This document shows positions 46,601 to 50,378 of a DNA stretch of 64,000 nt, in pieces. The first letter of the stretch is position 1. Each line of letters starts with the position of its first letter. Both the position numbers and the translations under genes were made by a program. The notes beneath the pieces were generated by a model. That model did no database searches. It saw nothing but the letters and a program-made list of their open reading frames with translations, and was not told where the DNA came from. The DNA comes from Chloroflexus aggregans DSM 9485 (lineage in GTDB: Bacteria > Chloroflexota > Chloroflexia > Chloroflexales > Chloroflexaceae): the NCBI RefSeq assembly GCF_000021945.1, contig NC_011831.1:3609353-3673352 (forward strand). The letters are read 5' to 3'.

Positions 46601-46617
46601 TTGTGTCTAGATGGGTG

Positions 46618-48105
46618 ATGCAGATAATGGGACTCCCGATTGTCATTGTGGGTGGTGGCTTAGGTGGCTTAGCTGCTGCAATCCGTCTTGCGACGCAGGG
46701 CCGGCGCGTTATCGTGTGTGAAAAGAACGAACGACTCGGCGGGAAGCTGAATCTTCATCAGGCCGCTGGCTATACCTTTGATACCGGTCCGTCGTTGTTG
46801 ACCATGCCATGGGTTGTTCGTGATTTATTTGCGTTTGCCCAACGCCGGATGGAAGATTATCTCTGTCTAGAACAGATTGAGCCGACGTGTCGCTATTTCT
46901 GGCCCGATGGTACTCGCTTTGATGCCTGGCAGCGCCTACCACAATTGGTGCAAGAGATCGAGCGCATTAGCCCGGTTGACGTGCCCCACTTTTTTCAGTT
47001 TATGGCTCATACCGCACGGATCTACGATGCGGTTGCCGGCCCCTTTTTACTCCGTCCGTTCGATGGGCTGCGTGAATTAATCACGCCATCAATGGTGCGT
47101 CACGCATTTCGTATCGATGCATTGCGCAGCGTTGATGCTGCTGTACGCTCGTTTTTTCGTAGCCCGCATTTGCGCCAACTCTTCAACCGTTACGCCACCT
47201 ACAACGGATCGTCTCCCTATGTATCGCCGGCTACGTTCAACCTTATTTCCTACATTGAGTTAGCAGAAGGTGGTTGGTATGTACACGGTGGTATGTACCA
47301 GTTGGCCGTTGCTCTGGGCCGGTTGGCTGCCGAACTCGGGGTTGAAGTGCGTACCGAAACGCCGGTTAGTGAAGTGATCGTTGAGAAGGGATATGCACGC
47401 GGAGTACGCCTGGCTCATGGTGGGGTACTGCCGGCAGCCGCGGTAGTCATTAACGCCGATCCACAGTACGCCTACACCCACCTCATTCCCGGCGGTCAGC
47501 GCGAAGCGACTCGGTTGGCACGGTTTGAACCTTCGTACAGTGGAGTTGTCCTCTTCCTTGGGGTTGAAGGCGATTTTCCCGCATTGGCGCATCATACTAT
47601 CTTCTTCAGCGCCGATTATCCCTCCGAGTTTCGTGCCATCGTGCAAGATCGTCGTCCGGCACTCGATCCGACCATCTACATCGCTGCTACGTGCCGTTCC
47701 GATCCAACCCATGCCCCTCCCGGTCATATGAATTTGTTCGTGCTGGTGAATGCGCCTGCCGATGATGGTCGGATCGATTGGGAAGCCGTAATGCCGGCGT
47801 ATCGCGACCATATCATCGCCAAACTTGAGGTAATGGGTTTGTCCGGTTTACGTCAGGCGATCCGCTACGAATCCTATTGGACACCGCGTGATTTAGCTCA
47901 ACGCTACAACGCAGCGTTCGGTGCTATTTATGGTCTGAGTTCCAATTCTCCCTTTGCTGCCTTTGCCCGTTCTCCTCTCCGTGCCCGTCGCGTCAAGCAG
48001 CTCTATTTTGTCGGAGGCGGCACGCATCCGGGTGGTGGCATCCCGCTGGTTTTGTTATCCGGGAAAGCCGTGACCTCTCGGATTTTGGCCGATCAGGGGG
48101 CGTAA
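46618..48105 (+). CDS. CrtI-family carotenoid dehydrogenase/oxygenase (second member)
   Basis: 495 residues from the ATG at 46618 (another at 46627). IVGGGLGGLAAAIRLATQGR binds FAD, ERLGGKLNLHQAAGYTFDTGP follows, and the C-terminus has LYFVGGGTHPGGGIPLVLLSG. It is clearly homologous to the crtI product at 31.3 kb but diverged (KLN against RAY after the GG). It probably acts later in the pathway, as a second desaturase (CrtD-like) or a carotene oxygenase. The sequence alone does not choose. No other pigment genes lie beside it; the structured RNA region follows. Confidence 0.8.
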   Translation: MQIMGLPIVIVGGGLGGLAAAIRLATQGRRVIVCEKNERLGGKLNLHQAAGYTFDTGPSLLTMPWVVRDLFAFAQRRMEDYLCLEQIEPTCRYFWPDGTRFDAWQRLPQLVQEIERISPVDVPHFFQFMAHTARIYDAVAGPFLLRPFDGLRELITPSMVRHAFRIDALRSVDAAVRSFFRSPHLRQLFNRYATYNGSSPYVSPATFNLISYIELAEGGWYVHGGMYQLAVALGRLAAELGVEVRTETPVSEVIVEKGYARGVRLAHGGVLPAAAVVINADPQYAYTHLIPGGQREATRLARFEPSYSGVVLFLGVEGDFPALAHHTIFFSADYPSEFRAIVQDRRPALDPTIYIAATCRSDPTHAPPGHMNLFVLVNAPADDGRIDWEAVMPAYRDHIIAKLEVMGLSGLRQAIRYESYWTPRDLAQRYNAAFGAIYGLSSNSPFAAFARSPLRARRVKQLYFVGGGTHPGGGIPLVLLSGKAVTSRILADQGA

Positions 48106-48226
48106 AGCTAAAAATGTTTTACAACACTGCCACGATTTGCGGGCGATTCTTAATGGTTTCTTAACCATACGATCGCGTATCGTGGAAATAATTGTGTTTC
48201 ATCATCGTTAAGTTACGATAAACTAC

Positions 48227-48255
48227 TTGATTCTACACCGTTGTAGTGCTATGAT
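48227..48255 (+). promoter_or_regulatory. Promoter of the structured RNA, with internal inverted repeat
   Basis: TTGATT (48227-48232) and TATGAT (48250-48255) are spaced by 17 bp. The spacer itself contains CTACA-CCGT-TGTAG (48233-48246), an inverted repeat that could bind a regulator over the promoter. Transcription would start near 48262, just before the closing stem. Confidence 0.65.
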
Positions 48256-48261
48256 AAGGCC

Positions 48262-48763
48262 GTAGCTTCGAGAGGGCATCAGAAAGCAAAGGAGGGAACA
48301 CAATCACTTACGTGCAACCGGAAGGCAAGCGCTATACCTTTAATGTAAAAGGTTATGTGTGGGTAAGTTGAGAGAGGTATAGCGTAAGTTCGGGGAAACG
48401 CCCTCATCAATATATGAAAATGTAATGATGATGAGTGGCGGGGAGACGAACAGACAAGCGCCAGGTTACTGCTGAGTAACCGGATGCTCTGCGAGCCATA
48501 CGGTTGCCTCCCAAACAAACTCACCGCGTTGGGGAAGAAGGAGCTGCTATCCCACGCTAGATGGTGAGGTTATCCGATAGCAAAAGCTGGCCCGGCGCAA
48601 TACCTGCTGAAGGCAGAGCAGCTAAAGGATCTGTGAGGGTACGGTGGTTGTCTCCCTCTAGTAGCCCTGATGAACTCTCGAAGCAGCGGCCTCTGTATGG
48701 TGGTAGGTAATAGGTTTAGCTTCTAGTCGCGGTGCGGCAGGTATCTGCCGCATCTGCGTTTTT
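48262..48763 (+). ncRNA. Large structured non-coding RNA of unrecognised family
   Basis: No credible ORF, but dense complementarity. Closing stem 48265-48274 with 48675-48684 (10 bp). Continuing inward: 48277-48282/48667-48672, 48292-48297/48653-48658 and 48301-48307/48644-48650. Internal hairpins: 48330-48339/48375-48384 (10 bp), 48399-48409/48429-48440 (11 bp, one bulge) and 48464-48470/48475-48481 (GCTG loop). A longer helix, 48485-48492/48613-48620, encloses AGCTGCTATC with GATAGC-AAA-AGCT (48542-48551/48576-48588). That last helix crosses CTCACC/GGTGAG (48520-48525/48563-48568), a possible pseudoknot. The unit has its own promoter and terminator. I looked for RNase P, tmRNA and SRP signatures and found none. 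Confidence 0.75.
48733..48763 (+). terminator. Terminator of the structured RNA
   Basis: TGCGGCAG and CTGCCGCA (8 bp, GTAT loop), then a short spacer and five Ts. An overlapping GCATCT/AGATGC hairpin (48750-48769) could serve the convergent fabG-like gene. Confidence 0.75.
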
Positions 48764-48780
48764 AGATGCAGATCGTATTA

Positions 48781-49530
48781 TTAGGCCATCGTCCACCCAC
48801 CGTCGACCATCAGCGTCTGTCCGGTAATGTACGAGGCAACTGGCGAGGCGAGAAAGAGTACTGCTGCAGCGACCTCTTCCGGTTTACCCAACCGGCGCAA
48901 GGCAATGATCCCGGTACTCCACTGCTGGATCGACGGGGGAATCACGTTTATCAGTTCCGTTTCGATCATTCCCGGTGCGACGGCATTGACCGTAATTTGC
49001 CACGGGGCCGCTTCACGGGCTAGCGATCGGGTGAGGCCGATGATACCGCCGGCTGCTGCTGCAAAGTCAGCCTGGCCGGGAAAGCCTGATATACCGTACA
49101 ATGCAGCTATGTTGATGATCCGGCCGTAGCGTTGTTGTATCATCGGTCGCAAGACGGCGCGACAGGTATGGTACACTCCACTCAGGTTGGTCTGAATGGT
49201 TTGTCGCCAGCGTTCGCTGCTTATCTCACCAAACGGCCCATAATTGGCAATCCCCGCACTATTGATTAAGATGTCAACCCGTCCCCATCGTTCAATGGCT
49301 GCCGCAACTAGTGCATTGCCACTGTCGACTTCACGTACATCGATGGCGAGTGCTTGGGCGTCACCACCGGAGTTCTGCACCGCAGCAACGGTGTCAATTG
49401 CAGCATGTTCGTTGTGGTAATACCCAACCAGAACACGGGCACCGTATCGCGCTAAACCTCGCACAATTGCTTGCCCAATACCGCCCGAACCGCCGGTGAC
49501 AATTGCTACTTGTCCACTGAAGTCGATCAT
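48781..49530 (-). CDS. FabG-like short-chain dehydrogenase lacking the catalytic triad
   Basis: 249 residues. The cofactor-binding TGGSGGIG (12-19) and the ILINSAG block are kept, so it can probably still bind NADP(H). The Ser-Tyr-Lys triad of 3-oxoacyl-ACP reductase is absent. The serine position is Ala143 (NIAALYG), the YxxxK motif reads FAAAA (Phe156, Ala160), whereas the neighbour at 49632 has SSLAAL and NYAAAK. It cannot catalyse the standard reaction. It is the last gene of the fatty-acid cluster and may form a mixed oligomer with the active FabG. Confidence 0.82.
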   Translation of the reverse strand: MIDFSGQVAIVTGGSGGIGQAIVRGLARYGARVLVGYYHNEHAAIDTVAAVQNSGGDAQALAIDVREVDSGNALVAAAIERWGRVDILINSAGIANYGPFGEISSERWRQTIQTNLSGVYHTCRAVLRPMIQQRYGRIINIAALYGISGFPGQADFAAAAGGIIGLTRSLAREAAPWQITVNAVAPGMIETELINVIPPSIQQWSTGIIALRRLGKPEEVAAAVLFLASPVASYITGQTLMVDGGWTMA

Positions 49531-49631
49531 ACGTGTACCTACGGTTCTGTCATGCGTCGAATCGAAAGAAGCGGCGGTTTCCCTGCTATGCTTACGATAA
49601 CCTAACAGGTATGTTGCCTAAGTATCGTTGG

Positions 49632-50378
49632 TTATGGCATTACCCAGCCACCGTCTATGGTTAAGACATGGCCGGTGATGTACGATGCACGCGGTGAGAC
49701 AAGAAACCGGATAGCGGCGGCGACCTCTTCGGGGTAGCCAAACCGACCGATGGCAATCGCTTGTAGTGCCCATGCGCGTAATGCTTCGGGCACCGTCTCT
49801 ACCATATCGGTCTCAATGTAACCGGGCGCGACGATATTGACGGTAATGCCGTCACGGGCGACTTCCCGGGCCAATGATCGGCTCAGACCAATAATCCCGG
49901 CTTTCGCAGCAGCATAATTGGTTTGACCAACATTACCGGCTAGTGCTGCTAGTGAACTGACCGATACAATGCGACCATAACCGGCTGCTCGCATAATGGG
50001 CGTAACAGCGCGACAACACAAAAACACCGAGGTGAGATCGATGTCGAGTACTTGCTGCCATTGTTCAGGACGCAGGCGAGCCAGCGGTGCATCTGCGGTA
50101 ATTCCGGCATTGTTGATGAGAATGTCGATTCGACCCCACCGATCAAGGGCAGCCTGCATCATCCCTTGCACCGCTTGTTCATCGGAGACATTTGCCTGAT
50201 ACGAGAAGGCATCGCCGCCGTTGGCAATGATGTCGGCTGCCAATTGCGTAGCCGCCGCAGCACTATGCTGATAGTTGATCAACACACGGGCACCGGCAGC
50301 GGCTAGCTCAAGGGCAGTTGCCCGCCCGATCCCGCGACCGGCGCCGGTAATGATAGCGACTTGTCCCTGTAACTCCAT
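49632..50378 (-). CDS. fabG: 3-oxoacyl-[acyl-carrier-protein] reductase
   Basis: 248 residues. Reduces 3-oxoacyl-ACP with NADPH in fatty acid elongation. TGAGRGIG (11-18), NNAG (89-92), the catalytic Ser142, Tyr155 and Lys159 (NYAAAKAG) and the C-terminal YITGHVLTIDGG are all present. Eight bases separate it from fabD, so fabH-fabD-fabG are probably one transcript, followed by the inactive paralogue about 100 bp later. The two paralogues are clearly similar, suggesting duplication. Confidence 0.93.
   Translation of the reverse strand: MELQGQVAIITGAGRGIGRATALELAAAGARVLINYQHSAAAATQLAADIIANGGDAFSYQANVSDEQAVQGMMQAALDRWGRIDILINNAGITADAPLARLRPEQWQQVLDIDLTSVFLCCRAVTPIMRAAGYGRIVSVSSLAALAGNVGQTNYAAAKAGIIGLSRSLAREVARDGITVNIVAPGYIETDMVETVPEALRAWALQAIAIGRFGYPEEVAAAIRFLVSPRASYITGHVLTIDGGWVMP

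Follow-up and report, generated by a model that had tools for sequence, protein, structure and literature searches.

To our knowledge, few large and intricately folded bacterial RNAs without an assigned function have been described. Housekeeping RNAs such as RNase P RNA and tmRNA are of comparable length and have their ends brought together. Three of the large RNAs without an assigned function have recently been solved and form unexpected RNA particles; OLE, ROOL and GOLLD reportedly assemble into protein-free multimers, whereas the raiA RNA is reported to be a monomer and the HEARO RNA to be disordered without its protein (PMC12286853). For Chloroflexus aggregans, the Chloroflexi-1 RNA (RF01698) is listed as a candidate structured RNA (PMC2864571), and a 2010 paper found only partial rnpB regions in this species and in two Roseiflexus (PMC2996960).

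Here, we describe a locus in C. aggregans DSM 9485, the genome of which is a single contig of 4,684,931 bases. The locus lies in a stretch of 64,000 nucleotides, hereafter called the window, in which an original prediction had seen a large structured RNA gene. Comparison with relatives makes it highly probable that it is a stand-alone non-coding RNA gene of about 500 nt, the product of which folds and most likely acts in trans. The likeness to OLE, ROOL and GOLLD drawn in the prediction is fair for size and layout, and homology is not implied. OLE RNA shares the layout of a large, structured, stand-alone bacterial RNA, and its hosts and neighbours differ from those found here. ROOL and GOLLD are alike only in layout, being large, closed and multibranched, and differ in that the present RNA is syntenic in one bacterial order and its core pattern has no exact match in the viral contigs of IMG/VR. 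The raiA-motif RNA, a structured RNA class of different size and distribution, gives no Rfam match in the window, nor does the Chloroflexi-1 RNA.

Transcript signals and distribution

The features of the locus are collected in Table 1. The promoter and terminator that had been claimed are both present by scan, the promoter-like matches on both strands numbering 3 against 1.3 expected from shuffles. Transcription would start at about 48262, which places the closing stem about 3 nt past the start; the terminator hairpin begins about 47 nt 3' of the stem, close to the spacing of about 50 nt first proposed. There is one copy of the RNA in the C. aggregans genome.

Table 1. Features of the RNA locus and its neighbours (window positions)
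Feature	Position	Strand	Remark
Upstream neighbour, phytoene-desaturase family gene (crtI)	46603..48105	+	TIGR02734, E 3e-125, above cut-off
Palindromic element ATCGTTAAGTTACGAT	48204..48219	+	putative operator of the RNA promoter
Promoter	48227..48255	+	predicted by promoter scan; sigma-70-like; -35 TTGATT, 17-nt spacer, -10 TATGAT preceded by TGC
Predicted transcript, about 500 nt	48262..48763	+	closed structured domain 48265-48684, then 3' tail and terminator
Closing stem P1, 5' strand GCUUCGAGAG	48265..48274	+	pairs with 48675-48684
Inward continuation of closing stem, 5' strands	48277..48305	+	partners within 48647-48672
Core domain closed by P5, with P6, P7-P8 and P9	48312..48508	+	P5 = 48312-48320/48501-48508
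P6 hairpin	48331..48383	+	84-85% paired; 6/7 consensus pairs changed on both sides
P7-P8 arm with symmetric purine internal loop	48384..48455	+	GGGAAA 48393-48398 / GGGAGA 48441-48446
P9 hairpin	48457..48488	+	13 pairs, one unpaired base each side
P10 arm	48519..48566	+	inner stem 48526-48533/48551-48557
3' arm with conserved AGCAAAAGCU	48572..48629	+	helices 80.6-91.4% paired
Closing stem P1, 3' strand CUCUCGAAGC	48675..48684	+	partner of 48265-48274
Intrinsic terminator	48731..48763	+	hairpin 48731-48754, then TTTTT 48759-48763
Downstream neighbour, FabG-like reductase, convergent	48781..49530	-	PF13561 E 4.6e-63; TIGR01830 E 1e-74, below its cut-off

Two types of the RNA can be told apart, type I and a diverged type II. 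The signals are best documented for type I, of which 38 loci were delimited, L013, L019, L023, L025 and L027 by typed stem patterns. In all 38, a 16-bp palindromic element lies 44-48 nt 5' of the closing stem (in the form ATCGTYAA-N4-CGAT in 37 and ATCGTAAA-N4-CGAT in one) and a -10-like TAnnnT stands 7-10 nt 5' of the stem, preceded by TGC in 37. Across genomes, the exact palindrome adjoins the RNA in 43 of 44 with type I, the 44th (G060) having the ATCGTAAA form, and in the C. aggregans genome the exact pattern occurs once. The palindrome is thus probably an operator of the RNA promoter, on which a regulator would bind. The pattern is also met away from the RNA, with 34 other matches in 41 family genomes against 12 for the reversed control, and with 40 against 5 in nine RNA-negative genomes of a second family (G041-G049, family f2), where the palindrome may have had an earlier role as a binding site. 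The regulator likely to act at the palindrome may therefore not be specific to the RNA. Terminator-like hairpins were found 14-229 nt 3' of the closing stem in 30 of the 38 loci by a script that ran without a shuffled control. In L017, a 30-nt tandem repeat of 3.8 copies (1781-1895) lies between closing stem and terminator, and the tails of several relatives hold similar motifs, which are absent from the window copy.

BLAST found full-length or nearly full-length relatives in each of the seven further genomes of the genus, split into two pieces in one of them and 80-87% identical in the best pieces, as well as a core conserved throughout the family; two of the BLAST relatives, L035 and L036, were left unused. 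A core covariance model (R1), built on 29 sequences and run against the class at E<=0.1, matched in 46 of 158 genomes, one of which (G125; partial, E 0.09) was set aside as chance. The RNA was found in 45 of the 82 genomes of the order Chloroflexales, namely in 35 of 41 from the window's own family and 10 of 26 from that of Roseiflexus; R1 found it in none of the 15 genomes of the order's two other families and, once the partial match is removed, in none of the 76 genomes of the class outside the order. Of 400 genomes sampled from the phylum, 29 match, and all of these fall in the same two families, which we infer to be Chloroflexaceae and Roseiflexaceae. The class and phylum runs used stricter filters, at which weak matches are lost. 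Scanning 84,980 species for the core pattern gave 33 stretches, of which 30 are the RNA and three (L053, L058, L060) chance; the genera include Chloroflexus, Oscillochloris, Chloroploca, Viridilinea, Roseiflexus and Kouleothrix, and one locus titled Gracilibacteria (L043) is probably a binning error.

The RNA went undetected in 6 of the 41 genomes from its own family and in 16 of the 26 Roseiflexus-family genomes, some of them incomplete; it is therefore dispensable in part of the order, and these absences count against the proposed stand-alone, trans-acting RNA. A further model (R2), which recovered four held-out loci, close relatives of its members, at E 2e-21 to 2e-17, found no copy in the 37 RNA-negative genomes of the order, in a run made without a positive genome as control, so that the empty result carries no weight.

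Type II occurs beside type I in six Roseiflexus-family genomes and by itself in one. It has a different promoter (CTTGTAAA and TATACT in 7/7) and a different closing stem, and it shares with type I the loop of P7 and, at a similar position in P9, a bulge. Its neighbours are a short-chain dehydrogenase and a PurL-like protein in L101; the neighbouring protein in L103 matches a family of peptide-maturation metalloproteases at E 6.9e-35, short of the cut-off. One genome rated 100% complete (G065) has type II, with type I undetected.

Reaction-centre matches above cut-off are present in 42 of the 45 RNA-positive and 21 of the 37 RNA-negative genomes, including 9 of 11 of genus g34. A strict link between the RNA and phototrophy was rejected on account of these 21 genomes and of the converse case, G070, a 100% complete genome with the RNA but without a reaction-centre match; the association may reflect family history.

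Fold and covariation

The minimum-free-energy fold of 48262-48763 (+ strand) has -202.1 kcal/mol compared with -162.4 (sd 6.1) for 100 dinucleotide shuffles, none of which was as low (z -6.5). The minus strand of 48227-48763 does relatively better (z -8.4), and folding energy therefore cannot name the strand. Over the 113 consensus pairs, G-U cells number 238 against 135 A-C cells, a count biased by the use of a fold that was predicted with G-U allowed. Promoter, terminator and the G-U excess favour the + strand as that of the RNA.

The closing stem proposed by hand can be read in the sequence and recurs in the minimum-free-energy fold. The further paired segments that were said to continue inward on both sides are present as well, the consensus fold having 19 helices. 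Whether relatives preserve the fold was assessed on core alignments of 29 rows, A1 (26 pairs) and A2 (type I and type II core), and on full-length alignments of 31 (A3, 489 columns), 6 (A4) and 7 sequences (A5), which omit L037 and the undelimited members; the alignments are not structure-aware, and some rows are off by one base. In A1, 95.1% of the cells are paired, against 81.1% in shuffles and 29-44% when the structure is slid along the alignment, and the corresponding values for A2 are 91.5, 74.7 and 29-43%. The fold predicted from the window sequence alone pairs 76.6% of the cells of A3, against 68.7% in shuffles and 36-39% in slides; 92 of its 143 pairs are changed on both sides, where shuffles have 72.1 and slides 50-60. 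On the 23 rows from outside the genus it still pairs 71.3% (slides 34-39%), with 73 pairs changed on both sides (slides 41-50). The RNAalifold consensus of A3 gives 87.1%, 74 of 113 pairs changed on both sides and 462 cells (shuffles 76.3%, 51.2 and 164; slides 34-40%, 33-44 and 98-129); because it derives from the very alignment that is tested, the tests of the window-sequence fold are the more independent ones. One type I sequence of the Roseiflexus family folds at z -5.85 and one type II sequence at z -9.40. The Roseiflexus-family type I fold pairs 95.7% of A4, with 13 two-sided pairs (slides 36-39%), and the type II fold pairs 93.0% of A5, with 23 (slides 31-35%).

Covariation is thus abundant in the core, full-length and outside-genus row sets, closing stem included, which supports the fold and upholds the view of a large RNA gene with a conserved structure. 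The count of 'further pair types' is less favourable: the observed values were reached by 49 (A1), 123 (A2), 335 (A4) and 497 (A5) of 500 shuffles and do not exceed the shuffles in A4 and A5, nor clearly so in the core alignments, which counts against the proposed folded, trans-acting RNA.

The closing stem P1 is 98% paired over the 31 full-length sequences, and at two of its pairs A-U has become G-C in 8 and 14 rows. The helices between P1 and P5, an outer rod, covary and form the weakest part of the fold; that each of them pairs in only 57-81% of the cells is another point against the proposed folded, trans-acting RNA. The core is firmer. P5 is 87.9% paired (7 of 8 pairs changed on both sides), P7 99.5% (2 of 7), P8 79.6% (7 of 7) and P9 99.5% (6 of 13), and the P7-P9 part is common to type I and type II. 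In the purine internal loop, 10 of 12 positions are at least 90% conserved in A1. The inner stem of P10 is 89.8% paired, with 5 of 7 pairs changed on both sides, and its outer CUC/GAG pairs are near-invariant. Conserved stretches in the full-length alignment include GCAAAGCUC and GCAAAAGCU. A scan for pseudoknots or covarying stacks outside the fold, which is blind to symmetric kissing loops, returned only two 3-bp candidates.

Neighbours, known families and coding potential

In 18 of the 20 loci L015-L034, the RNA follows crtI in the same orientation, as would be expected of a cis element, whether this was the crtI 3' untranslated region or belonged to some other neighbour. This reading is very improbable. 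The RNA has its own conserved promoter region, the next downstream gene in the window is convergent, and type II adjoins other genes. In the two exceptions (L023 and L025, from two Viridilinea genomes), crtI is not adjacent and the operator is intact. Conversely, crtI persists without the RNA: 9 of 11 RNA-negative genomes keep a close relative of it (44-64% identity; the other two have distant ones only), and behind crtI in these nine R2 found nothing except a match of E 0.68 in L129 (the region searched in L127 ends at the contig end). In G017, a fabD-like sequence (by eye) stands closely behind crtI, as at an empty site. The downstream side changes as well, with metX/metY-like genes (by eye) in L107 and L108 where fab genes otherwise stand. 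In L112 (G002), the crtI frame is not listed beside the RNA and a secretion-ATPase-like frame (by eye) lies upstream, an arrangement due to loss or misassembly. A riboswitch or cis-acting leader is not indicated either, as the next gene lies on the opposite strand and the terminator ends the RNA. The immediate neighbours, of the phytoene-desaturase family and FabG-like, are also not those of an IscB- or TnpB-linked RNA (HEARO, omega RNA).

Large structured RNAs are frequently of mobile-element origin, and the locus could be such a remnant (an intron, an omega RNA or similar) kept by chance. Its syntenic conservation and strong covariation, two immediate neighbours that are not mobile-element genes and a core pattern unmatched, as an exact string, among IMG/VR viral contigs leave this barely credible.

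The prediction had placed the RNA in no recognised family, and the searches agree. Rfam 15 gave no match in the 64-kb window at gathering score, including to the models of OLE, ROOL and GOLLD, families which we take to be included in the library. At E<=10 over 47000-50000, its only match (E 9.6, other strand, 48064-48226) lies outside the RNA. In ten homologue loci searched at E<=5, no match fell on the RNA; the two sub-threshold matches are both in L108 and off the RNA. One of these, at 2189-2236 of L108 on the opposite strand and outside the core, is to the C/D-box sR28 (E 0.002) and probably due to chance.

A divergent housekeeping RNA was rejected since the genome has its RNase P RNA and tmRNA elsewhere, in line with their earlier exclusion. 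The genome's only RNase P-like match (RF00010) is at 144000-144436 (G000:C1; L070) with E 1.9e-27, below the gathering score, and the tmRNA (RF00023) is at 1921078-1921438, above cut-off; ARAGORN finds no gene in 47900-49000. For 6S RNA (RF00013), no match was obtained at the locus, nor at E<=1 in the genome; as this search gives a match in only 6 of 14 control genomes, which include archaea, the genome may still encode one. None of the families tried includes the RNA, which resembles in kind other large structured bacterial RNAs. No report of it was found in the literature, most subscription papers lying outside the search, and a term search of the main texts of PMC11109978, PMC8632094 and PMC6429828 met neither roseiflexus nor any word beginning with chloroflex.

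A coding locus was rejected, as no reading frame is kept. In pairwise comparisons with the window copy within the genus, 27 of 31 gaps are not multiples of three (related gaps being counted repeatedly), and in the window copy the longest run free of stops, 96 codons on the minus strand, stays below the 95% shuffle level of 125; some relatives have runs of up to 140. The stretch of about 500 nt between a carotenoid gene and a fab gene is hence free of an evident open reading frame, as first noted.

Possible modes of action

The conserved fold with its compensatory changes, the promoter-like region with an upstream palindrome and the terminator-like hairpins in most loci, together with the lack of an evident open reading frame, the survival of the RNA when neighbours change and a paralogue with another promoter, are all seen by comparison and appear to establish a stand-alone structured RNA, its expression apart. 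It is probably a new class of such RNAs, and probably trans-acting; its transcription and function and the regulator at the palindrome are inferred. On balance, we lean towards a trans-acting class confined to part of the Chloroflexales that would work as a ribonucleoprotein or an RNA-only particle under the control of a conserved operator, and that a duplication in the Roseiflexus family would have supplied with a separately regulated second RNA.

The most likely single mechanism, which we advance tentatively, is a ribonucleoprotein scaffold. The closing stem would bring the ends together and present the core P5-P9, where the purine loop GGGAAA/GGGAGA and A-rich joints may bind protein, and the amount of the scaffold would be set at the operator. 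Alternatively, the RNA could assemble with itself into dimers or larger particles, proteins being secondary. Size class, a closed multibranched fold and a stand-alone gene are as in OLE, ROOL and GOLLD, for which protein-free multimers are reported, yet stacks outside the fold amount to the two 3-bp candidates, and the monomeric raiA RNA and protein-dependent HEARO RNA speak against it (PMC12286853); we regard RNA-only assembly as unlikely. Since multimeric, monomeric and protein-dependent RNAs are all known from that study, layout cannot decide the mechanism.

The tightly conserved promoter region, suggestive of controlled expression, and conserved stretches such as those named above would also suit a regulatory RNA that presents short unpaired regions for pairing with mRNAs or for sequestering a regulator. 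Typical pairing small RNAs are shorter and folded more simply, and we consider such a role rather unlikely. A ribozyme or other catalytic RNA could account for a large, multibranched molecule with invariant core positions; with a single genomic copy and no Rfam match on the RNA down to E 10 in a search of 4227 families, presumably including the intron and ribozyme families, catalysis is improbable.

As a ribonucleoprotein scaffold or otherwise, the RNA is one more class in this group, with a fold of about 420 nt that is well supported, a paralogue encoded in the same genomes, and related genomes in which it was not detected. Some of its hosts are cultured. Its natural presence, absence and duplication make its function testable, and the conserved operator offers a handle on the timing of its production.
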